From contig NC_133899.1 of NCBI RefSeq assembly GCF_964199755.1, positions 4,030,001 through 4,094,000 of the forward strand: a DNA stretch of 64,000 nt. Direction: 5' to 3'. The stretch's first letter is position 1, and each line of letters opens with the position of its first letter. The stretch is from Larus michahellis. Taxonomy: Eukaryota; Chordata; Aves; Charadriiformes; Laridae. Under the pieces are notes generated by a model. It was not told where the DNA came from and searched no databases. It worked only from the letters and a program-made list of their open reading frames with translations. Shown here piece by piece: positions 18,730 through 57,289 of this stretch. A program made the translations under genes and the position numbers.

Positions 18730-19285
18730 TCATCTTCCTCGATCTTGATGTTTTTTTGTTTTCGACTTTTTCTTTTTGTCCTCTGTTTTGGGTTTCAATG
18801 CACAGACACACGCAGACACACCAGCAATTGCTTTAGGTAAGTCAGTTCCTTTGTACCACTTATTTTTCTCCTTGTCATAAACCTGGACCGTTTTGGAGAA
18901 GACCGTTTCTTCCCAGCTGTAGCCTCCAAGGATATAAATTTTGCCTTCCCAAACTGCCACCCCTGACTCACTGTTTGCTTGCAACAGAGGAGCAACTCTG
19001 GTCCACTGGTTACACTGAGGGCTGTACGACTCCACGCTCAGAATGTCAAAGCGAGCCATGGTTTCGATGTTGTCATCGCTGCCACCAATGGAGTAGATAC
19101 TGTCCTGTAAGGTGCACATGCTGTGCCACCCTCGGGCAGTGATCATTGGCCTCTTCTCCTCCCAAACATCCGTGCGGTAATCGTAACACAGCAGGTTTTT
19201 TCTATAGGGGCCAATTTGGTAATCATGGCCTCCTGAAATGTACACAAATTCCTTGTAGACTGTTCCAGCATGGCCGTACGTAAAC
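18730..19285 (-). CDS. KLHL36: KLHL36 coding exon 4 (last)
   Basis: Acceptor TGTCCTAG precedes the base that completes the split arginine codon (AG|G), then FTYGHAGT. It encodes kelch repeats 4-6 and the basic tail, and ends in TGA at 18732-18730. Confidence 0.97.
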
Positions 19286-22200
19286 CTAGGACAGGCAAAC
19301 AAAAATGATCCCACTTAATACTTATGGATTTTATCAAGATACACAAGCATTCAACAAGGACTGCTACTAAAGGAGAATATAAACAGTAACTAAAGACAGA
19401 AGAATCCCCGATCCTGTTAGTTACCCGGTAACTATTCTCATTCATACGGCCTCACCCTGCGCTGCAGAGTGCTAAGGTACGACAATCACTTTTTAAGGCA
19501 TCCTTTTCATACCTGGTCGCTACAGAGCGCTAAGGTATGACAATCACTTTTTAAGGCATCCTCTACAGTGTGTCATACAAGAGAAGTAACCCATACTGCT
19601 CTAGTTGGCATGGCCTTCACTCCCATTTTCCTGCTCCAGTGCTTGGGTTGGATCAGTCTGAGAGGGCCAGAGAGGAAAAAATCCACATCTCAGCAAGGGT
19701 TTCTATGACAGAAAGAGGAAATAATCATGACACCTCTCAGACTCACCAGTAGCGATTAACCAAGAAAAACCAACAAGAAAACTACTGCTGCCTTCCCCTT
19801 CCACAGCACTGCACGATCACGGATCACGTTTCTTACCCACCAGTGTTCACAGCCCAGTTTATTTGCAGTCATGGTACATGTAGTGTCCTTTTCACGAGCT
19901 ATCCACCTCTTCTACCACTTCTGCTATACAGGTGATAACTTCTTTGGTCACCCCAAGACAAGGCAACAGACCTCAGTCAATCAGAGTCCACGTCCTCAAT
20001 AGATCAGAGTCCACGTTTGAAATAAGACAAAATGACATGGTAGAAACCAACATCATGCATGCTCTTTCCACAGGGCAGAGAGAACCCCTTTGATCAGCTA
20101 CAAAAAAGCCACTACAAACCTAATTCTTGAGGCCGTTCTTAACTTCACACTACGATATTCCTGACCAAACTCTTTTGGGCTCTTAGAAGTGGGATGCTAA
20201 GGTGAGGGACAGCCTTGGCTTCTTTGAACACATGCCCTTCCTGCACATGCTTTTTTTTGCCTGTTCTTGGGCACGGGGGGCATCAGAAGGTGTAGCTGCA
20301 ACACCAGCCACAGCAAACTGGCTCACACACTGCTACAAAGAGCCCAAACAATTTAATAGCCATTGGGCTGCAGAGCAGTATAGTAAAATCATCATGCTGC
20401 CCTCACGAGCCTCTGCTACCATCCTTTGTAGTCAAGGACTCAAGACAGCTCCAACCTCTATGGCAGACAAACCTACGTTAACATTACTTTAGCCTGGAAT
20501 GCTTTTGAACCATGCCTGAACACGCTCGAAACTCAATGTGGATAGAACCTTGAGCTGTTTTTATTTCACATGGTAATAGTTTGTCTCAGCTACGCAAACG
20601 GTATCATAACTTCTTCCACACACCTAAGTGCCAAGCGCTTTTGTGCCAAGGGAAAAGGTGGAATAGAAAAGAAAACCCACATTTACCCTGAAAGCACAAT
20701 ACTTCTGAGAAAAGCTAAAAGATGTTTGTTATTCTAGATGCCTTCCGAAGCTTCTGATCCCTGACCAGTGTCTGAATCAGATATTTTAATAGGCTCCAGC
20801 TCCAAGAAACAGAGAAATCCTTGACACGCTTGGCCTACGAATGCCGCGTGGCCAAAACAGACCTTGCAACTATCGGGGCTGGAGCACCATCCCTGGAGAC
20901 CTTGAAGAGATGACTTCAGTACTGTACTGCTTCTTAGCCACTCAGAAAAAAGAAAGAAAGAAAAAAAGACAGGCACCTAAAGCGTAGTTATGAGACTATA
21001 CCCAAAAGGGCAACTCAAAAAATCCACAGCTCACAATCTGCCTAACCATGGAAGCACCTAACTCTTGCTTGGTGCTTCTGTTTGACAGGAAATACCCTGA
21101 GCACCCGCGCTCCGGCTTTCGCACCTGCCAGAAACGCTATGGCAGGCGGAGCGTACACAAACGCTGCTCTACCTTGCTTTGTGGTCTCTTACAGACAAGA
21201 ACTGGGAGCATACGTCTCCAGCGGCACCCGGTCTGGTTACTAGAGTCTTTGCTTCTCTATATACACAGGAATGGGTCTTAAGAAGCGGACTACTTATCTG
21301 GGAAGTAAGATGGACAACTTGAATTCGTTTGCTTTCTCAAACTGCAATTGATTTTAAACCCACATGTAACCAGCAAGCTACTTGCCGGACGTGCAGTGCG
21401 CTCCACTGCAGAGGCTGTGTTTAAACGTTTTCCTACACTAACCGAAAAGTGGAATTCTCTACAAGTAAGCAAGCAACAGACTTTTTGTCTCAAGCACACG
21501 CAAGCAGCCTAGCACAGACAGCCACAGAAAGAACACTGATGGTTTTCTTTCTTTTTGCCTCAGTCAACGGGTATGTCTAGTGAACAGCAATAGCTGCAAG
21601 AGTAATTTGAAAGAGGCAATCATATTTGAAGCATCAAATCGACCATCAATTCGTTATTTTCCAATATAGGGAGATTACCCGTTGAAATACGCTGGAGGTG
21701 TTGCACTTTTTGCCTGACTTCTGAAAAGCTCATCCAAAATTGCGCATACCGGGCTTCACATGAATAGAAAACTGCACGAAATATACTGCACAAATTGAAA
21801 ACAATCACTAAGAATCCTTTCTGCAAGCCCTGTGGTCTAAACAGGGCCACTTCTAAATGTGCAACAGAACAGGACGCCTCAATACAGGGGGTTCCGACAT
21901 AGAATCACAGAATAGCTTGGGTTGACACCCTCCAACAGAAAGCGTCAAGCGTTTTGGCAGCGTTATCTATAAGACTGGCCAGAAAAAAGAGGCATTAAGG
22001 AGAAAGAAGTTTCGATCCAGAACATCTGCTAGAGCTAGCTGCCGATTTTGAATAACTTACCTAGGCACAATGCTGCAAGAACTACAGTTTCTGACACTAA
22101 CACCATTCAGTAAATGCTAGAAAATCTAACATTTACTTTCTTAAACAGAAAAACACTTGGCCTAACCCCATAGAGCTTTGGGAATCCCCTACTCCAACCA

Positions 22201-25200: not shown

Positions 25201-28200
25201 GAGAGAAACACCTTGCAAGGAAAACAATCACAACAAGGTGACAAAGTAAGGCCAAATAAATTACAAAAGCCTTTGATCAAGATCTAAAAAGTGCCTCCAA
25301 AAAGACTCAATTCCAAGTGACATCAGGAAAAACCTTTTAAGAATAGCAGAGCGAAATTACAAGGGCTCTTCCTCCCATCCTTCAGATGTACCTCAGGACC
25401 AAAATTAAAACCAACGAAGCTGACAGGAGGCACGCTGCCTGGAAGAGATGGTTGCTCAAATACCAAATGCCGATATGGCTTGTTCCTTGCTGATACCATA
25501 TTGGTGATATATCCCCTTGCCTCCCTTCTACGGATACACATTCATCAGCTAAAGTCACACAAGCTCCCTCTACTACTGTTCTTCAAACACGGGATAACTT
25601 TCCAAACATCTCGGTTACCTTGGCAAGCCTGCTATATAGGACCATGAATCCTTCTGAGGACTGTAGGTCTCAACTGAAGAAAGTGCCCCATTTTCATTCC
25701 TGCCACCAACAGCTACCAGCATGTCGGTAATAGCTCCCAGGTAGAAATCTACACGGCGTTGTCTCATGGAGGCAACCTGTCAAAAAAAATAACGTGCTGA
25801 CATCTTCAAACGTCTGGTGAGCAAGCTGACTTAACGTATATTCATTTCTGAAGATAGAATTTCCTCCTTCCCACTTATTTGAAAAGGAGAGCTACTGGTT
25901 TTCATCCATTATATTCATAAGATACTTATGAATGTAAGCTTTTCTGCAGTAGCATGTTACGTAGCACGCCTTTTCAAAAAAAAAAGGGGGCAACAGAAAG
26001 CATGTAAGAGACAGGTCATTCTGTAAAGGTTTGTGTTACATGGGCCTCCTTCCAAAACTCTGCAAGAAACACAAATTGGAATCACTCAGAAACACAACTG
26101 AACCACACAGTACGATTGGTTCAAAATACGGGAACAGTGTAATATTTTAAAGGTCCTGCACTGGCCGCAGGGTTTTACAGGAGGACTGGAAGTGAATAGC
26201 TTGTTCTAAGAGACATTTAGCACATAGACATTTGGCAAGTGTCAGAGACATTTTCTTTTTACATCAGAACCGTTTTTTTTTCTTTACTTAGATGTGCTAC
26301 TGCTTGAGAAAGACAAACTAAGCAATCGCGTCTGTAAGTCCAGTCTAGCATTATTCCTAAAAGTAATCTTGAGACTTGCAGATGGATGCTGACCAGGAAG
26401 TTCACAGATGAGATGCTCAATTCCCAAGTGAAGCTGAAAATCTGCCCCAAAGTCTTTTGCCGCGTGTGTAACTTAAGCATTCCCACAAAGGATTTAAGTA
26501 GCTGCTTTTTCAATTTAAATAACTCAGTTTGCCATTTGCAAGCATTGCTACATTGGCTATTTTAACAAGCCCTGTCTTTCCACCAAAAATAAGAAAACAC
26601 TTTAAACATTAAGGACTTTAAACAGAGAAATAATACAGCTTAAGTCTCACCTTTATCCACTGGTTACAGCGGGGATCATACCTATATAGGAGATTTGAAG
26701 CTGCATCCCCTCCGTTGTCTCTTGAAAAGCTGCCTCCGGCGATGAAGATGAAGCCTCCCAAGACTGCGACACAGTGGTGACTTCGCCTGGCTGGCAGAGG
26801 GGTTTCTGCTACCCAGTGCCCCTTTCTGATGTCCAAGAAGCAGGTATCATCACTCAGTTCCAGGCACCGTTCGGAAACCTCCCCGCCCACAAAAAGGAGC
26901 CTTTCCTCGCAGGTCCGCAGGGCTGTCCGCTTGTTCTGCAGCACTGGCTGAGCTGTGACGTTGTTATGGTAGTTCACCGCTTCCTCTATGAACCCCTCAC
27001 AGTTTGCTTCTTTGGGAAGAAGAGAGCAGACAGCAGGCTTGACTCGATGGAGGAGATCACTTTTAGGTATCAAGGGAAAATGAATGTTATCCAGAACCTG
27101 GTAAGCTTCGTTCTCCCTTTCCGGGTACTGGGTAAGCCACTGCAAGGCAGCCTGCAACAAGTCGTGCTCACACTCCTGCTGCACGTTGCTGCTGTCCAGG
27201 TATTGGCACAACTTCTGCAAGGAGATGTTCTGCAGGAAGTCCGGGGTGAAAGACAGCGTGCCGAAGTTCTGCAAGATGAAAGAATCAATGTAGGAGTCAA
27301 GGCGCTTCAGGTTGTAAATTGAGGCTAGCTCCTGCAGGTACAAATAGTTCTCCTCGCTGACTTCATTCTCCAGGTACTCACAACAGAAGTCGACCACCTT
27401 CCAGATCTGCAGCAGGTGAGCTGTTTCGAGCACATAGTCGATATTGCCTCCATCTAAAGACAGCTCACTGCCATAAAGGAAATCCACCACAGCCTTAAGA
27501 CCAATGTAAGAGGCTCCAAAAAGTTCAACCTCTTTTTGGTGGGCTTCTCGCATGCCAATGGTGAACATCGAGTTGAAGTAGTCACTGCAAACAGCGAGGA
27601 GGTTCCGATGGGCAGGGACTCTCTGTTCATCCACCACAAGGACAATGTCACAGAAGAGGCCTCGATGCCTCTGCTCATTCAGGCTCTGAAGAACTAGACT
27701 GGAGTGGTCATCCCACCTGTACACCTGGAATAAACAAACAGGATCAGGCAGATGTTATCTTCACCAAGATAAATTTCAGTGTGCACGAAGTGTTTTCCCA
27801 TTAGATGCAGTCCTACACGAGAGAGAAAGCTTACTTATGCTGTACATTTATAATAAATTATGACTTAGAACAGTTGGCAAGCAACATAGTGAGCCCAAGC
27901 TCCTCACCTTCACTTTGAAAGGACTATGCAGAGTTTTACTGCTTCTGCTCCCCTTTTTTATTATAATTTACTTCTGCCTCCTCCACAACGCTGCATCTAA
28001 ACCTCTTCCCAGATGATTTCTACAAGCACAATTTTCTGAAACTCTTCCACTCATTGTCCTCGAGACATCTTGCTGACACTTGCTTTCTTACTTGTCCCCC
28101 AAATGACTCCTTACAGAGTTCTTCTCAACTAGGCTGCTCGCTAAATATTGTAGTGGGAGATACACATGCAGCAAGATGACAGATTTTCATTCAGCCCATG

Positions 28201-33232: not shown

Positions 33233-33945
33233 CAAAATCATAGTATAATTTGGGTTGGAAGGGACCTTTAAAGGTCATCTAGTCCAAGCCCCCTGCAGTG
33301 AGCAGGGACATCTTCAGCTCAATCAGTTTGCTAAGAGCCTTGTCCAACCTGGCTTTGAATGTTTCCAGGGATGGGGCATCTATCACCTCTCTGGGCAACC
33401 TGTTCCAGTGTTTCACCACCTTCATTGTAAAAGATTTCTTCCTTCTATTGAGTCTAAATCTACCCTCTTTTAGTTTAAAACCATTACCCCTTGTCCTATC
33501 ACAACAGGCCCTGCTAAAATGTTTGTTCCCATCTTTCCCTTAACTCCTTTTTCAGTACTTTAAGTACTGGAAGGCTGCAATGTCCCCCCAGAGCCTTCGC
33601 TTCTCCAGGCTGAACAACCCCAACTCTCTCAGCCTGTCTGCATAGCAGAGGTGCTCCAGCCCCTGATCATCTCCATTGCCCTCCTCTGGACCTGCTCCAA
33701 CAGGTCCATGTCTTTCCTGTGCTGAGGCCCCCAGAGCTGGACGCAGTACTCCAGGTGGGGTCTCATAAGAGCAGATAGAGGGGCAGAATCCCCTCCCTCA
33801 CCCTGCTGGCCACGCTGCCTTTGATGCAGCCCAGGATACTGTTGGCTTTCTGGGCTGCGAGTGCACGTTGCCGGGTCGTGCCCAGCTTTTCATCCACCAG
33901 TACCCCCAAGTCCTTGGTTGTACTGCTCTTCTTCAGCCACCCCAG
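33233..33945 (-). mobile_element. CR1 LINE, about 0.7 kb of 3' region
   Basis: Minus-orientation CR1: it opens with AATCATAGTATAATTTGGG and TTGGAAGGGACC, the complement of the 3' end. It continues through GCAACCTGTTCCAGTG, CTTCTCCAGGCTGAACAACC, ATTGCCCTCCTCTGGACCTG and CAGTACTCCAGGTGGGGTCT, and stops after CCCAAGTCCTTGG. It is 5' truncated, with no intact reverse-transcriptase frame. The short open frames inside are repeat shadows. Confidence 0.95.
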
Positions 33946-36038: not shown

Positions 36039-36940
36039 ACAGACCCCCTTAGAGGTCTGGGCCAGCCCGCAGGGATGGAGACGGCAGCGGTCCCAGCTCC
36101 CACCCGCGGCCGCGGGGGCGATGCTCCCGGCCGGCGGCCTCACACGCAGCGGGGCGCTTTACCCGGCTCCTGCCCTTGCCCCGGCCGGCGCGGCCGGCGC
36201 AGCCCCGCATCCCGGCCTCCAGCCCCCCGTCCGGAGCCGGTCCCTCGCCTTCCCCTCGCCTTCCCCTCGCCTACCTGCTCTCCGTCCTCCGGCTCGGCTA
36301 CCTCCCGTGCGCCCGGCCCTGCTCCCGGCCCCGCCGCGCAGGCAGCGGCTGCTCCATCTTGCGCATCGCTTCTCCTTCCTTCCTCCTCCCGCCCGTCGGG
36401 GGCTGGAAAAACATCGGGAGGGGGGGGCTGGAAAAATATCGGCGGCCGAAAACAGCATCACTGCGGAGGGCCCTCCGCGCCGGGACCAGCCCCTCGCCCC
36501 CCTGCCCGGGCAGCGCCCTGGCTTTGCATCCTCAAGACAGGTGTCCCCCCCTCTCCCTCCCGGTTGTTCCCCTCCCCCCGCCTTCGTCCCCGGGCTATTG
36601 CATCACCCCGAAACCCCCTCGCCGGGGCCGGGAGGGGCGGGCGGGGGCAGGCTCAGCGCAGGCGGCCGAGCCATTGGCAGCCGGCGGCGGGGCGGGGGCG
36701 GGCGGCGGGCGGCAGCGCGCTCGGCACTGCGCGGCGCGGTGCGGCAGCGGCAGCAGCAGCGGATCCCCCCACCCAGCTCCGCGCCGCTCCGCGCTCCCCC
36801 CCCCTCCCCCCAACCCCCCCGGCCTCCCCGGCCGGCCGCCCCCATGGCCACCAAAATCGACAAGGAGGCGTGCAGGGAGGCGTACAACCTCGTCAGGGAC
36901 GATGCCACCGAGGTGAACTGGTAGGTGGCCCCCGGCATCT
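36039..36940 (+). promoter_or_regulatory. COTL1: COTL1 CpG-island promoter
   Basis: A dense CpG block leading into COTL1 exon 1. About 170 bases before the ATG is CCATTGG (36671-36677), an inverted CCAAT box of NF-Y type, followed by GGGGCGGGGGCGGGCGG GC boxes (about 36688-36705). I infer transcription begins downstream of these, roughly 36720-36790. There is no TATA box. A 25-base-period tandem duplication (GGCTGGAAAAA(C/T)ATCGG) lies at 36399-36442. Confidence 0.75.
36844..36920 (+). CDS. COTL1: COTL1 coding exon 1
   Basis: The ATG at 36844 matches the family start. The exon ends GAACTG|GTAGGT in phase 2, splitting the tryptophan codon (TG|G). The frame stays open upstream of the ATG through the GC-rich 5' region, so the start is chosen by homology. 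Confidence 0.97.
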
Positions 36941-39900
36941 CCGGGACAGGCACCGGTGCGCTGTGATTCCCCTTCTCCTCTCCCCCCTCCCGAAAGGGTG
37001 ACTTTTACCGACCTTATTCCCCTTCTCCTCTCCCCGCCCCCCCCTTCCTCAAGGATGTTTCTTTTACAGTATATTCTTCCCCATCTCCTCTTTTCCCTTC
37101 CAAAAGGCTGACTGTTAAATATATTACTCGCCTTCCCTTTTCCCCTTCCCAAAGGGTGGCTTTTAAATGTAATATTCCCCTTTTCCCTTTCCCAGAGGGT
37201 GACTCTTAAATGTATTATTCCCCTTCTTTTTTCCCCTTCCCAAAGGGTGACTCTTAAATGTATTATTCCCCTTCTTTTTTCCCCTTCCCAAAGGGTGACT
37301 TTTAAATACAATGGCTCTACAATCGTCCCTGGAGACCAAGGGGTAGACTATGAAACCTTTAAAAGGAAGTGCACAGGTAAGCTCTGTCTCGATTGCTTTG
37401 GCACCTTACCGTGTTTTTCACTGCCCGGTGCAAGGGGGGAAAAGGATGGGCGAAAACTTGGGTAAACTGGAATTAGTGCTGCTGCTTCCCCGAGTCTGCC
37501 CTGTCCTGCATGGTCGGGTTTCCAGCCGCCACAGAGCGCAACTCACTCAAGTCCATAGTCCAGCTGGTCCTTTGTCTCACCCTTAGACTTAAGGTCCTTT
37601 GGGCTTTTTTCCCTCCTTTGCACAATTTTTCATTGCTTCTTCGTTCTAATAAAGATAAAATGCTTAATTAGAAACGGCCTCCTTGTTTAGCGCTGCAGTT
37701 TCAAAGCATTGCTGAAGAGCAAAAAAGACTCAATGTTTGTGGCTAAAAGGATGCAGTCATACAGTTCATTTTGCAATAAAATTCTTCCGTAAATTGTGTT
37801 TATAGTGCTAAAGTAACTGCAGTTAGGCGACTTGCTGGGATTTTTTAAGAATATGAAACCTGAGAAGAGAGTGGTTATGCTGAAGATTGGCTCGAACAAT
37901 ACAGCACTGAAAACAATCGTATATGTGGCATTGCACAACCGCAACAGTTGCGGCTCTAGGTTTAAACGTGGCAGTTGATTGTTCAACTGTCAGTTGTAGA
38001 ACATTAACAAGAGAAAAGAAGCCTGGGGAAAATGAAAATAAATTGAGGAATATTTAACTTCATGTGATCTTAACTTTTGACGTGTTTTACAAGAGTGGGC
38101 TTTGATTTCTCTCAGAATAATTTATAGGGAGAAATGGTATAGCTTTTCCTTCTGTCCTGGCTGCTATTTACCAGGTGACACAAGATATGAAGCATTTGTA
38201 ACTAATACCGGACTATAACAAAGTCTTCCTCGCTCATCTAGTTACTCTACAATCGAGCATTACGGTTAACCTGTACTTTTAGAATTACGTATCTGTACTG
38301 TGAAGGAACTGTGTATTGAGCAGCTTCTCCCTTCTCAAGGTGGGGCGGGTCCCGGAGGCACTGTAGTCAGAGTCCCACGGCTACTGAAACGCCAGTGCCT
38401 GTCCAAATCGCTCTGCCAAGTCCTAGGGCTTGGCTATATTGTACTGAGTTGGAGAGGAGAACTTCCAGTAACTCAAATGAAGGCAGGACTGGTCTGATCA
38501 GTCAATAAATATCATAGGAGAAAAATACGTTTTAGTCCTTGTAAGGCAGCCTGTAAATCAAGATGGTTTACACTGCTCTGCTATGACATTTGCAGCGGGG
38601 TCTTACTAGGATTAACACAGCTACTCGTTTCCAGCTGTTCTTGAGACCTTTGCAGGGAAAATTGTCAAAACCGAAAAGGATCCTCTTGTAGTTGATGTTA
38701 GAAGAGCTGATACCCTGTACAAGAACTCCTTCCCACCCAACTCTTCTTAATGGCACCATAAGAAAAAAAGCAATTCCTGAGTATACAGGGAAACCCTGGG
38801 CTCAGCACTTCTGAAGTTCATGCCAACATTATCTAAAGGGTTAGTAGTTTTCTTGGGAGGTCAGCAGCCTCATATCTCAGTGCCATGTTCTCGGTCTCTC
38901 TTGTGGCCAAGATAACTGAGCATCTCCAGCGTCTCCAGACATCTGAGGCTTGCAGAGGAACCTTCCCCATTTATTTTCTCTCCTTGTTTTTACGGAGTCC
39001 CTCTCTTATTTTTTCAGAACTATTTTTAATGTTTTGTCTGGAGTGGCACCCTCTCAAGAACAGTTCCTATCTTCCTTACTGTAGCAAAGGGAATACTTTT
39101 CTCAAGTGGCTAAGCAGGCAGAGGGGCTTTGGCAGAGAGCAGTCACCGGTTGGGCTGGGCAGGATGCGTATAACAACTAATGGAGGCACATATTGCACTT
39201 TGGAATACGGCCAGTTTTATTTTCTTGCCACCATTTTCATGTGCCACACCCTTATTTATAAACAGGGTATTAAAGCAGACAGAGTTTAAGGAAACCTGGT
39301 TTCCTTAAACCAGCAAAGTGCCAAACTGGCCCCAATACTGAAGCATTTTTACAGCAAAAAGGAAATGTTGCATATTTTAGGCATTAGCACAGTAAGGGAA
39401 GAGTTAAATAAAGGGCATCTGTGGGGTGGACTGTGGACTATTGTTAGCCTTTAATGTGGAGATAAATCCCTTGTAACTGCTCCATTGCTCCCTTTCCCTC
39501 TTCCTTCTTTCCCTCTTCCTTCCCATGCGCCTGGTATGGGCAAGAGGTTGTCCTCAAACCTACGTCTGGAGCACAGTTGTTGGAGGCTTCAAGAGCTAGG
39601 CAAATTCGGGTTCCGGGTTCTTGGCTAAGTGCTAGAAAGGATCTTCCTCCACCCATGAATTACGGTGCAGCAGTTGGGGAAGCAAGAGATGCAAGTTTCG
39701 GTGCCTCCATCTGTGCAGCAACCCTTTGCCTGGACCACTAGACGTAGTCAGAAAACAAGGCTCCTGCCAGCAGTGAAGTTAGAGCTTTCCTCCCATCTGG
39801 AAGAAAGGTGCCAAATGTTACTATGAAGTAGAGCTGGTTGGAATATTTCTACTGAAAAAAAGTCAGTAAAAAAGAATAGAAAGGGATGGGAAGAGCTGCT

Positions 39901-45900: not shown

Positions 45901-48900
45901 GTTTCAATTTTGAAATCTTCAGAGGAGTTTGTCTGAAACATTGTACAGGCTCACGCACCCCCCGCATCCATTTTGCAGTTCTCCCCAGTAGTCCTCTGTC
46001 AGTGGCAAAAAGGTACACAGAGAACAAAATAGGGAGAGCATAGGTGTGTTTTTGTCAGACTTAAAAACGTCTTTTGTCAAGGGGAAGTGGTCTTTACTCA
46101 CACTTTGGCAAAACAAAGCGTTAAAGAAGTTCTGACATCTTTCAGAGAACATCCCACTTTTTTGCATGGATTTCTAGCAGCTTATTTTCTGGGGATGAGC
46201 AATTTAGCACTGCTTATTCCCTATCCCTGGAGCTCCTGGGGCTGTCCTGACCGTTCATGGAGCATGCTGTAACGGATCCAAGGATGGGGATGTTGGCAAA
46301 CGTTACTAACCGCGTTTTCACCTGGCAGTAGTCAAGACAGCAAATAACTATAAAACATGTTGAACTGGTCACAACAAGTGTAACCAGGATTAACATGATT
46401 CTTTTCAACCAGCAAGTTTGTTCTTCTATTTTGAGTCATCTCATTTAATTTAAAAGGTCTTGAGTGACCTGTAACAGATGAAGTAGCTATGATTAGGTAT
46501 ATTCCACGATTGCACAACTGTCCATCTGCTCTGCTTTTCTGCACAATCCTGGTTGAAGGCTCCAGTATTGTGCACGCTACCGAGGCTGGGGATATGAGTA
46601 GATGGTATCACACGCTCTGTAAGTGCCTGTGATTGTGAAGGCGTCCAACTGCCTCAGTTGATGAGTCACCCTGCAATGAAGGAACGAACTCTTCGAGACA
46701 AGGAGTTTACAAGGTTTTTACACATGTGGCCAGACTAAATAACTCTAGTCTGCTGTGATATAGCAGAAACCAGCTGTGAAACAAAGATCAGAACAGTTTT
46801 AAAATCCAAGGCCTTTGGAAGGAGTAGAAAAGCACATCTGGGGAAGTAATTGCAGATTTTTCTTTTGCTCCTTCTTCTCCCCTCCGTCTTTGAGTTTCTT
46901 TGAGTCTCATTTCTTCTATGAGTTTACAACTCATACCACAAGTGAGACAGAAATGTTGCTGAAGGGAAGGAAAGGATCAGATTTGCACAATGGCCCGTTT
47001 CTGGATATACGTTATAAAATGTGACCCTAATTCTGCTGTCCTGTAAGAAAGAGACACTGGGAAATCACTTTCTTCCCTTCTTGACCAGTGACCTGCAGAT
47101 GAATGATCTGGCTGAATGTAAGTGGGGTTAGCTCTGTGCTCTTGAGCTGCCTGTTGACTGTATTTTAGCCACTTCCAAACTTACTAGCAGCACGCTGATG
47201 TGGCGTGGGGTGGCTGTCACAGCCAGCTTCCTCCCAGTTAACTCAGAGCACGCTAGGAAGAGGCAGACCTAACACTGGCAAAGTGCACCTTGCAAGTGAA
47301 AGGCATGTGAGCAGAGCCCCTGTATTGCCCTGTTAATCCAGAACGACGGTATTGTAACACAGGATCAGTGCCTTGACTTGGTCTTTAAGTTGAGAGCAAT
47401 AGTCTCACCCTGGAAAATGGCAAGGCGAGGATGTTTCTGTTTTCAATCACTTTACCCTTGTTGCTTTGTCTTTCCAGATGATGTTCGATTGTTCGGCTTT
47501 GTCCGATTCACCACCGGTGATGCCATGAGCAAGAGAGTCAAGTTTGCCCTCATCACTTGGATTGGAGAGGATGTCAGTGGCCTGCAGAGAGCCAAAACTG
47601 GGACCGACAAGACTCTGGTCAAAGAAGTAGTACAGGTAACCTCTTACTTCTGCTTCTAACCACAGTTCTCATTGCCCCTAGCTCTACAAACACCAGCAGG
47701 AGGTAAGAGAGGGGAAAGGATTGGATCATCCTTTAACTTAGTAGTTAATCCTTTAAAAAAAAGACGTTTTCCTATTGCCTGTCTTCCTACTAGGAAGACC
47801 TAACATCTGCCCTTTGAGCACTCAGGTATAAAGAAGCACCTTTGAACTTAAGTCTTTACTATTTCATGAAGAGGGAGTATATGCTCTCCCCTTCTTGTCA
47901 CCATTAAGATGTTTCCCATCTACTTCCTTGATATGGAAATCACATAATATTGAACGGTAGAGAACAAGGCAGTATTAAGCTAAGCAGATAAAATTAAACA
48001 GAAAAACCCACACCCTTGTTTAAAGTTTTCTCTTGAAGCCTTTTGTCTCAGCACAATGAATTCATGGATTGAAGTCCGAAGTCCCTATCAGTACCAATTA
48101 ACTAACAGCTCTTAATAGCTAACTAGATTTGAATAGTCTTCTGTTTGGCTTTGGGCGTATCAGGGAAAAAGAGAAATGTGCTTAGTACACACCTTGGAAG
48201 GGCTTCACTTGAATTTGCCTGCCCCAACCGAGCTTATCATTTAACTCTGTCAAGGCCTCCCAGGGTACTCTGAGCTGGGCTCGCTCTGTCGGGCTCCACG
48301 CTCAGACCAAGCCGGTGAAGACAAGCAACTGCTGCAAGAGAAGGGAATTGTTTCCTCTGAAGAAGTATTTTAAGCAAGATTAGCTCTTGCAACTAAACCT
48401 GAGAAATGGTCTTACTGCACTTGGAGAACAGGCTGACCATTGAAACAATCTCCCTCAATAATCGCGTTCTTGCCTATAGAAAGGAATCTCCCAGTAGGAC
48501 AATATGAAGGATGAGAATGAAGTCCCCCTCAGTTGATTGGTAGTTTGTATGATACAGGTTATATTTAGATAAGAAGCATGAAGAATGTAAAAAAATCATA
48601 TTCTCCCAGAAGATAAGCACTGGTGCTAAATCTTTCAAAATGACGACTACGCAGAGGAGTCCATCTGAAAGGAAACTTCCATAATGACACCTGAGAGATA
48701 GGAAAGCAAATCTCTGTTCATCTGAAGCAGCTGAAACCGTGTAATTGCAGCTGAAGATAAAATTATAGAGTACTAATGAATGACTCTTCTATGAATCACT
48801 AAGCCCAAGATTTTTAAAAAAATATGTTTAGACTGTTTCTTCCTGTTGAGTTGAATAGCATTCCTGAATGCTGTTCGAAGATCTGTCCCGCAGGTCTGTT

Positions 48901-54900: not shown

Positions 54901-57289
54901 TCTGTTCATGCATGAGTGCACTTGCAGTTTTAAATTCAGAATCAGCTGGATTCTGCAGACTGGACATTGAAGGAAACCCTCCCTGCATTTCCAAAATACA
55001 CATATTTTAATGCAAGCCCTCTCAGAACTGATTGTACAGGCCTTCCCCAGTTCTCACTAAAGTCAAGGCAGAGACTAGCACTGAAGTCGCGTAGTCTTGT
55101 TTCTTGAGTTGAGGAAAAGTTGTTAAACCTGTTAGCATGTAGAAAAGATGTTGAAAAGGCTCAGCTCAAAAATCATGTAGGTAGCACACCTCAGTGAGCA
55201 TCAAATAGCTGAAAACCATTTGTTTGGTCTTGGCAAGAGCTGAGCTTTGCAAAGATCTCACACAGGAGATCTGGAAGTAGGACACTTGTGAGCATGACCA
55301 AATCTGATGTTTTGAGCGGTCTGCCTCTTCATTTCCCATCTCAAAAAAAAGGTTTCTTTCTCTAAATGAAAAAATTTCTTTCCCTTTTCCCCTGAAATCT
55401 GCTAAGACATGTCTGAGTGCCTGTCATGTCTGTCTGTCCTCACACCACAAAAACCAACCATTGAAGTGCAGAGCAAAATGGTGCCGTTGTTTATTTCTAA
55501 GGATTTTGTCTAACTGCTAATAAACTAAAGCAGAGCAGACAAGGCTTCTTGTAGCTGCTATAAGCTTTTGGGTTTTTTTCCCCGTAAGCAACTCTTCGGT
55601 AGTGAGGATTTCCTACAGTGTGAAACAGGATCAGCTGCAGGCTGGGAGACTGGCGTGGGGGAGGGAGCTGTTTTGCTCTCCCTTCCATTTTTTCCACCGC
55701 ATGAAAGAGGTGCTGAGGCTCTTTCAAGCTGAATCCTTCTCCACCCCCTCCTTTACCCGACTCTGATCCCAAACTGAGACCCTTGAGACGCTGCCAAATA
55801 AAGAGCTCTCCCATGGCTTAGAGTCTGAAACCAATTAGAAACGCCCCCCCCTCCACAGTTGTGCCGGGGCTGTTCTAGCGCTGGGGGGACCTGGACAAGA
55901 CGACTGCTGCTCTCTCAAAGCATTGCCTAATTCTCCCAGGCAGCCTCCATCACCTTTCGGGGCACTCGCTGCCCAGGGAGCCAGGCATTGCAGCTTTCCT
56001 GAGACATTTCAGTAGGGCCGTCCGGATTTTAATTCATTTTTTTTTTATTGTCAGTTTGTCCCTGGCCCTGCAGAGAGCAATGGATGCTTGTGTTTTTCAT
56101 GCTGTCTAAAAACCTCTGTGGGTTGGGGGGAAGGGAAAAACATATACAGTGTTTTCAGTTGTGGTTGGGAAGTGAATGAAAATGCTAAAGCAAGAATCAA
56201 ATGTGCGTGTTTGCATGAATGCCTGTGCACACACATGCATGCTACCCTTGCTCTGTGGCAGGAGGGACAGCCCCCACAAAGAAGCAAATCCCTGACTGTA
56301 GGGACGCTGCCGTGACAAGCGCCCTAAAGGCATCATGGTATCCCATTCGCAGCGATCTGTTCTGAGAAAGGTTTTCTCTGTTCACAACCTCACATCACAG
56401 CATGCTGCCTAGGGCTTCCCCAGCTCCCGTAAGTTGCAAAGAGCATTCAAGCAGCTAGACAGCTGCCCTGCAGTACACAAGTGTATTAATAAAGCGTATC
56501 CTTAAAGGTCATTTTGGATCATTAGACCACAGAGCATAGTGGAGCCTATTAACAACACCAGCAGACTGTCTAGTGCAGTATCTTGGTTTTGGCCATGACA
56601 TGTATTCGATGGTTGAGAGGAGGAGTCAGTAAGTCTACTGAAGTAGACTTATTTGCTCCTGGTACCATCTACGTGTTGCTCAATCTTTAATCGAAGCATC
56701 CTCCCGTCAGCTGGTGGGGTACAGTACTGCAGCGTACTATGGCCTCCTTGTTTTGGGAGAAAGGCTTCTAAAAAAGATCAGGGCACAGACAGGATTAGTG
56801 ACTTGACAAAGGTTATGCTGAGGGACTGTGTCAGTTAGAAGGTCGACAATTTTGAGCTTTTCAGTTTTCATACTACTTAGGAAACTTGACCTAACCTAGA
56901 CTGTGCATTTATCACTAGGAAAACTTGTTTCGTAGGGCAGGTTTTGGTCTTGCAGCCAGTGACTTTAGAAGTAGGAACATAAAATTTCTCCAGATTAAGT
57001 CTTGGGTTTGGCCATCACTAGTCTTCCGTCTCATCCACAGCTTTCTATTTATCATCCCTGCCACAGCAGATAAGGGTACACAGCTCATAAAGCCATGGCA
57101 GCTGGATAAACACCACTTTATTCAGGTACTCGGACAAGTATCCCCTTTTGTGACAGGCTTTTTCTTTATCTCTTGCAGAACTTTGCCAAAGAATTTGTGA
57201 TCAGTGACCACAAAGAGCTGGATGAGGATTACATCAAGAACGAGCTGAAGAAAGCAGGGGGGGCTAATTATGATGCACAGACTGAGTAA
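36844..57289 (+). CDS. COTL1: Coactosin-like protein, complete (4 coding exons)
   Basis: Coding exons are 36844-36920, 37294-37376, 47478-47635 and 57179-57289 (77, 83, 158 and 111 nt), all GT-AG, giving 142 residues plus TAA, the same length as human COTL1. The product is one ADF-homology (cofilin-like) domain covering nearly the whole chain: MATKIDKEACREAYNLVRDD at the start, VRLFGFVRFTTGDAMSKR in the middle, ending KKAGGANYDAQTE. Lysines matching human K75 (actin binding) and K131 (5-lipoxygenase binding) are present in KRVKF and ELKKAGG. COTL1 is cytosolic, binds actin filaments without severing them and opposes cofilin; it also supports 5-lipoxygenase. Differences from human lie mainly at residues 21-25 and 43-51. 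Intron 1 is unusually built (see the minisatellite at 36967-37309). Confidence 0.98.
36921..37293 (+). other. COTL1: COTL1 intron 1 (373 bp)
   Basis: Starts GTAGGTGG and ends CCCTTCCCAAAG. About 88 percent of it is the tandem repeat described in its own entry. Confidence 0.93.
36967..37309 (+). repeat. COTL1: Minisatellite made of copies of the COTL1 exon 2 splice acceptor
   Basis: Seven tandem units start at about 36967, 37017, 37075, 37127, 37175, 37218 and 37266. Lengths are 50, 58, 52, 48, 43 and 48 bases, and the seventh is the real exon 2 border. Each has a pyrimidine tract (TTCCCCTTCTTTTTTCCCCT in the best copies), then CCCAAAG or a variant, then GGGTGACT(C/T)TTAAAT, which equals the first 16 bases of exon 2. 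Similarity rises toward exon 2: units 6 and 7 are identical over the whole tract and differ only once before ATAC/ATGT. The plus strand is strongly pyrimidine-rich. Confidence 0.93.
37294..37376 (+). CDS. COTL1: COTL1 coding exon 2
   Basis: Acceptor CCCTTCCCAAAG, then the G that completes tryptophan, then VTFKYNGSTIVPGDQG. Donor GCACAG|GTAAGC, phase 1. Confidence 0.96.
39284..39310. repeat. Perfect 12-bp inverted repeat (hairpin)
   Basis: GTTTAAGGAAAC, loop CTG, then GTTTCCTTAAAC. It is the longest perfect stem of this kind I noticed in the window, inside COTL1 intron 2. Confidence 0.8.
44842..44862. repeat. AT-rich near-palindrome
   Basis: AGTTTATATT, a single A, then AATATAAACT. It is cruciform-prone sequence in COTL1 intron 2. 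Confidence 0.75.
47478..47635 (+). CDS. COTL1: COTL1 coding exon 3
   Basis: Acceptor GCTTTGTCTTTCCAG completes the aspartate codon, then DVRLFGFVRFTTGDAMSK through TLVKEVVQ; donor GTACAG|GTAACC, phase 0. It holds the core of the ADF-homology fold and the actin-binding lysine. Confidence 0.98.
47636..57178 (+). other. COTL1: COTL1 intron 3 (9.5 kb)
   Basis: No supported gene. The longest open frame outside known genes that I looked at, 187 codons on the minus strand at 51207-51770, lies here and is discussed under rejected items. There is a short hairpin at 56630-56651. Confidence 0.85.
56630..56651. repeat. 10-bp inverted repeat
   Basis: TAAGTCTACT, GA, AGTAGACTTA in COTL1 intron 3, about 530 bases before exon 4. 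Confidence 0.7.
57179..57289 (+). CDS. COTL1: COTL1 coding exon 4 (last)
   Basis: Acceptor TTTATCTCTTGCAG, then NFAKEFVISDHKELDEDY and the C-terminus GGANYDAQTE, with TAA at 57287-57289. Confidence 0.98.
   Translation, partial: NFAKEFVISDHKELDEDYIKNELKKAGGANYDAQTE

Follow-up and report, generated by a model that had tools for sequence, protein, structure and literature searches.

Intron 1 of COTL1, a gene carried by the window analysed here (64,000 nucleotides of Larus michahellis DNA), offers the spliceosome several acceptors, since every unit of the repeat that makes up most of it resembles a 3' splice-site module. The locus raises the question of how an intron comes to be made of copies of its own end, and of what becomes of the message. 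The earlier note on this DNA asked how the spliceosome picks the last AG; since an isoform annotated in a cormorant matches the use of an acceptor located 48 nt upstream, the question is better put as whether it always does.

A minisatellite of acceptor units in COTL1 intron 1

A complete COTL1 coding region resides in the window on the + strand, and its four exons, once spliced, encode a coactosin of 142 aa (Table 1). The product is a full-length coactosin sequence, and hence a coactosin-like protein of the ADF-H family. Searched against solved chains, it matches six distinct coactosin-like proteins, with E values from 1.4e-78 to 4.9e-77, and a seventh chain, a cofilin-family protein, at E 1.6e-8; it also matches the Pfam family Cofilin_ADF. 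The assignment of the locus to bird COTL1 is borne out by these matches. Upstream of the gene, reading frames of a BTB-BACK-Kelch protein are found on the - strand at 26618-27754 and 18730-19314; they would fit KLHL36, a neighbour of COTL1. Open frames are present on the - strand at 33279-33889 as well, and contain phrases resembling those of a decayed CR1-type reverse transcriptase.

Six copies of a unit, each consisting of a pyrimidine tract ending in AG and of the first 16 nt of exon 2, precede the real acceptor of intron 1, and make up a minisatellite of 344 bp. The array overlaps the exon-intron border, and homology extends to about base 16 of exon 2. Intron 1 contains 11 AGs. Seven of them occupy equivalent positions in the units, and close blocks B0 to B6 (Table 1), the first six being located 297, 240, 187, 139, 96 and 48 nt upstream of the last. 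Branch-point-like cores (TnAy) lie 25-30 nt upstream of the AG at five of the seven acceptors, though the motif is loose and carries little weight. To the eye, TTTCTTTTACAG, at 37058-37069 in B2, comes closest to a textbook acceptor among those of the intron, yet its use would lead to a premature stop. The end of B4, CAGAG, holds two overlapping AGs at 37194-37197; the first (CAG) would lead to a stop, the second is in frame.

A run of a tandem-repeat finder had been set beforehand as the test of the units. Tandem Repeats Finder recovered the array at 37072-37307, with a period of 48, 5.0 copies, 82% matches and a score of 286, thus as head-to-tail units within the range of about 10-100 bp that defines minisatellites. 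A second reading of the same program (37086-37308, period 91) scores 285; of the 82 rows obtained for the window, the remaining 80 score no higher than 62. Related copies were followed out to 36966 by repeat search. In the 1.4-Gb genome of the species the array has two matches, both inside the array itself, in a search that skips simple repeats.

The level expected by chance was set by 1000 dinucleotide shuffles of the intron, queried with the first 14 or 19 nt of exon 2. Allowing up to 2 mismatches over 14 nt, the intron contains 4 matches, the shuffles at most 0; allowing up to 4, the intron contains 5, the shuffles 0.188 on average and 3 at most. Over 19 nt with up to 5 mismatches, 5 intron matches are to be compared with a shuffle mean of 0.006 and a maximum of 1. 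Exon-derived segments in intron 1 thus exceed chance. The + strand of the 64-kb window has five occurrences of the 14-mer with up to 2 mismatches, four of them in the intron and the fifth being the exon; the - strand has a single one.

Repeat finder and shuffles together confirm the description of intron 1 as a minisatellite of its own 3' splice site and exon 2 start. The statement that nearly the whole 373-bp intron is repetitive was also correct, for length as for extent, the array covering 328 bp (88%). The unit had been described as a complete module, made of a pyrimidine tract, an AAAG or AGAG acceptor and 16 nt of exon 2. Tract, AG and exon 2 bases are indeed there, but the acceptor of B1 is CAAG, and the blocks between acceptors are uneven in length (57, 53, 48, 43, 48 and 48 nt). 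B2 retains only 8 of the 16 exon bases when compared without gaps; in each of the remaining five copies, three positions deviate from the exon.

Table 1. Positions in the window of COTL1 exons, intron 1 and the blocks of the intron 1 array
Feature	Position	Strand	Remarks
COTL1 exon 1, coding part	36844-36920	+	77 nt from ATG
COTL1 intron 1	36921-37293	+	373 bp; real acceptor AG at 37292-37293
Unique 5' part of intron 1	36921-36965	+	45 nt; donor GTAGGT
Minisatellite	36966-37309	+	344 bp
B0	36966-36996	+	pyrimidine tract at the head of the array, with the first copy of the acceptor (AG 36995-36996)
B1	36997-37053	+	57 nt; copy of exon 2 start, pyrimidine tract and CAAG
B2	37054-37106	+	53 nt; copy with most divergence
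B3	37107-37154	+	48 nt; copy with C16T
B4	37155-37197	+	43 nt; copy with A15G and C16T; ends in CAGAG
B5	37198-37245	+	48 nt; same sequence as B6; starts past the -96 in-frame acceptor
B6	37246-37293	+	48 nt; starts past the -48 in-frame acceptor; the real acceptor has its pyrimidine tract, AG and presumably branch point here
COTL1 exon 2	37294-37376	+	83 nt
First 16 nt of exon 2	37294-37309	+	source of the exon-derived part of every unit
COTL1 exon 3	47478-47635	+	
COTL1 exon 4, coding part with stop	57179-57289	+	end counted from translation

Growth of the array

Copying plausibly proceeded from exon to intron. This direction is likely because the exon-derived 16 nt encode (W)VTFKY, the consensus obtained by aligning 34 vertebrate coactosins; F and Y are invariant among them, and V, T and K are absent from the 90% list. 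Leaving out the diverged copy B2, three changes relative to the exon 16-mer form a nested series: B1 has none of the three, C16T is found in B3, A15G in addition in B4, and T8C in addition in B5 and B6. B1, B3 and B4 each carry private changes, the one of B3 affecting base 8 (T8G). B2 must be gapped to be aligned, and ungapped has C at base 8 too. B5 matches B6 at 48 of 48 positions, but neither matches the exon. Around the last two acceptors, no base differs within 50 nt upstream and 7 nt downstream.

Similarity had been described as growing toward the exon, as if tandem duplication had started at the exon border and displaced older copies upstream. The gradient is evident when whole blocks are compared to B6, identity increasing toward the exon with a rho of 0.89 (12 of 720 orders as high), but is weak for the likeness to the real exon, which over 19 nt amounts to 14, 10, 15, 16, 15 and 15 matches in B1 to B6 (rho 0.64, 66 of 720 orders as high). 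The notion of repeated starts at the border is not supported, since the nearest copies resemble the exon no better than B1 or B3 do, and changes are nested. As these nearest copies are young, and still no closer to the exon, the border plausibly seeded the array, and later rounds occurred inside it. Seeding by the exon border followed by duplication of array units is the course supported by the nested changes. The broader idea that the intron grew through acceptor duplication is supported as well.

The process probably started with an early tandem duplication of about 48 nt spanning the 3' splice site of intron 1. Of the duplicated block, roughly 32 nt would have been pyrimidine tract and AG, and 16 nt would have come from exon 2. 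The duplication would have been tolerated because the downstream copy still connected exon 1 to an intact exon 2. Slippage or unequal exchange between units of the array, and not repeated copying of the border, would have later extended the intron to its present length. The last acceptor gives the normal coactosin, and the acceptors at -48 and -96, if used, would give proteins with one or two 16-residue cassettes, respectively.

Upstream acceptors and related arrays in other birds

Splicing to the acceptors at -48 or -96 leaves the reading frame intact and would lengthen the protein by 16 or 32 residues, respectively; for six further sites (-98, -139, -187, -224, -240 and -297), premature stops result. 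The open frame in the units is expected from composition, since 81% of the units remain open when the intronic part is shuffled, and by this measure selection on the reading frame is not evident. The last AG is probably favoured, because it is the only one followed by a full-length exon 2. Downstream of the real acceptor lie 83 nt of exon and the exon 2 donor, downstream of -48 a 16-nt exon copy and another tract. By analogy with published constructs carrying a duplicated beta-globin 3' splice site, the last AG would be expected to prevail in most cases.

The -48 form was used to search 5.8 billion clustered proteins, and 328 were found, the best 120 of which were listed. Clusters were judged by their representative, and the search is no survey, because it makes visible open, in-frame units alone. 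The first match (P0001) is an NCBI entry from Phalacrocorax carbo, coactosin-like protein isoform X1, which has 158 aa and departs from the query at one residue. It carries a 16-residue insert, VTFKCIIPLLFSPSQR, between W26 of exon 1 and the V of exon 2; the corresponding sequence in the window starts with VTLKC. This isoform, annotated in another bird, has exactly one unit, and alternative transcripts may conceivably differ by whole units. A search limited to the insert region had 28 candidates, four of which (P0001, P0004, P0121 and P0122) were returned with an E value of up to 10; a search from P0004, an emu protein, had 11 candidates and returned the identical four, itself included.

The emu protein has two units, VAFKYIIPCLLFSPSQR-VNFKCISLLLFSPSQR-VTFKYDG, ahead of exon 2, and is devoid of exon 1; one of these units is 17 residues long, not 16. 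P0121 and P0122 are reading frames of contigs which include the unit and continue into intron 2. In all four the passage from exon-derived to intron-derived sequence falls at the identical place, after exon-derived codon 5, and in 4 of 4 the Tyr of the exon is replaced by Cys in the proximal copy. As read from the peptides, P0121 has a B3-like unit (RLPF.PSQR), one Cys-type unit and the exon, and the window has three Cys-type units, which suggests that the copy number of the array changed between lineages. A unit-by-unit orthology between emu and window was considered and discarded, as the distal emu unit (VAFKY) is like B4 in one residue and like B3 in another. The Egretta protein P0012 (MCQRVTFKY), a candidate for intron read-through, is indistinguishable from an alternative first exon and was not counted. 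The fold predicted for the 158-aa P0001 from 34 aligned sequences is unusable (mean pLDDT 48.1), the acceptor motif had 0 matches in the viral contigs scanned, and a narrowly worded search for literature on the avian COTL1 isoform and intron found none.

The cormorant annotation suggests that an upstream copy is used at least sometimes. Whether such use is meaningful is about an even bet. The array may have had the same history and no use at all, being a neutral minisatellite placed on an acceptor, with the last AG selected essentially always, and the cormorant X1 an artefact of gene prediction or rare noise; we give this possibility slightly less than an even chance. Among the matches listed, exon 1 is joined to a copy in a single protein, and one of the four proteins discussed speaks for a splice junction, because the emu model has no exon 1, and P0121 and P0122 are contig frames. 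P0002, the largest named bird cluster among the matches listed (65 members), has a representative without insert, and pyrimidine-rich units are open by mere composition. With a duplicated beta-globin 3' splice site, splicing was inefficient, and exclusively involved the distal site (PMC5389562). Against a total lack of use stands the sequence identity around the last two acceptors of COTL1; since they share 50 nt upstream and 7 nt downstream, the immediate surroundings leave room for the use of either. A more ambitious hypothesis holds that birds have kept the array as a working tandem alternative acceptor since before the crown-bird split, and that copy number sets the number of 16-residue cassettes in coactosin. 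We regard it as decidedly unlikely; if true, an old intron-borne repeat would be used, or at least tolerated, as a length-variable protein insert in birds.

As to the age of the array, the simplest reading of the peptides is a single origin before the emu/neognath split. Judging from the four proteins, this type of array probably arose once, and copy number has probably shifted since. Alternatively, one inherited intron end and exon start could have been duplicated independently in emu and neognaths. Parent sequences alike across birds would then yield peptides alike, and the emu unit of 17 residues would find an explanation; against independent events, which we deem unlikely, stand the place of the exon-to-intron step and the change from Tyr to Cys, both common to emu, cormorant, P0121 and P0122.

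The boundary of intron 1 seems in turn older than the array. In a tenrec isoform with a different N-terminus (P0114), the COTL1 sequence sets in right before V27; in a hoatzin model (P0013) it sets in right before W26, the codon of which spans the junction. Because of these junctions, the boundary seems common to mammals and birds. Tandem duplications have been reported to create introns (PMC2891723 and PMC2812944), and a new intron could have been born here by tandem duplication of exonic sequence, as in the proto-splice-site model. This is hardly credible, since the tenrec and hoatzin junctions would put the boundary before the array, and the duplicated block includes a pre-existing tract and AG. 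The locus does not look like a case of intron gain by tandem duplication, as the mammalian protein sequence switches at the intron 1 boundary; the array looks like the expansion of an old intron, rather than the birth of one. An assembly artefact, which the identity of B5 and B6 could evoke, is highly improbable, because the array is no longer than 344 bp, the assembly has its 1.4 Gb in 616 contigs, and related units are found in proteins of cormorant and emu as well as on two further contigs (P0121 and P0122). Confidence in the structure and history proposed here for the array, taken jointly, is good.

Splice-site repeats in known systems

COTL1 intron 1 represents a natural counterpart of a classic splicing experiment. 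Similar 3' splice sites, two of which are identical over 50 upstream bases, are arranged in series, and differ mainly in the length of the exon that follows and in the distance from the donor. If copy number varies among birds, species would provide replicate constructs on which rules of proximity, scanning and exon context could be monitored in living tissue. The array is also a stepwise example of an intron lengthening from its 3' end with the main protein unchanged, and illustrates how a repeat could turn into a protein cassette.

Artificial duplicated 3' splice sites were reportedly studied by Reed and Maniatis in 1986, and human introns are said to have been traced to tandem arrays or tandem duplication by Zhuo et al. 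in 2007. Unlike artificial duplications, the COTL1 array is natural, and includes seven sites of varying likeness, two of the upstream ones being in frame. In the constructs described in PMC5389562, the 3' splice site of beta-globin intron 1 was duplicated, and the stretch of exon 2 behind the upstream copy measured 14, 55 or 205 nt. The resemblance is close, as both systems feature identical tandem 3' splice sites, with little of exon 2 behind the upstream one (14 nt in the shortest construct, 16 nt in COTL1).

Tandem repeats at exon-intron boundaries alter splicing in recently duplicated human genes (PMC2812944, Genome Biol 2009). These are likewise minisatellites; they vary in number and, where located at exon-intron boundaries, give alternative splicing patterns. 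The genes concerned are primate ones of recent duplication, and half of the repeats sit inside coding exons. In contrast, the COTL1 repeat is almost wholly intronic, is present in a single copy in the genome, has a 3' splice-site module as unit, and has related arrays in emu and cormorant. Introns have been gained through tandem duplication in Drosophila (PMC2891723), and there as well duplication takes place at or near splice sites, and lengths that are multiples of three permit alternative forms. Unlike in these cases of gain, no intron was apparently born at COTL1, where an existing one seems to have grown. COTL1 differs from the systems mentioned in that an old intron has been expanded from its 3' end by units resembling 3' splice sites, with relatives in emu and cormorant.
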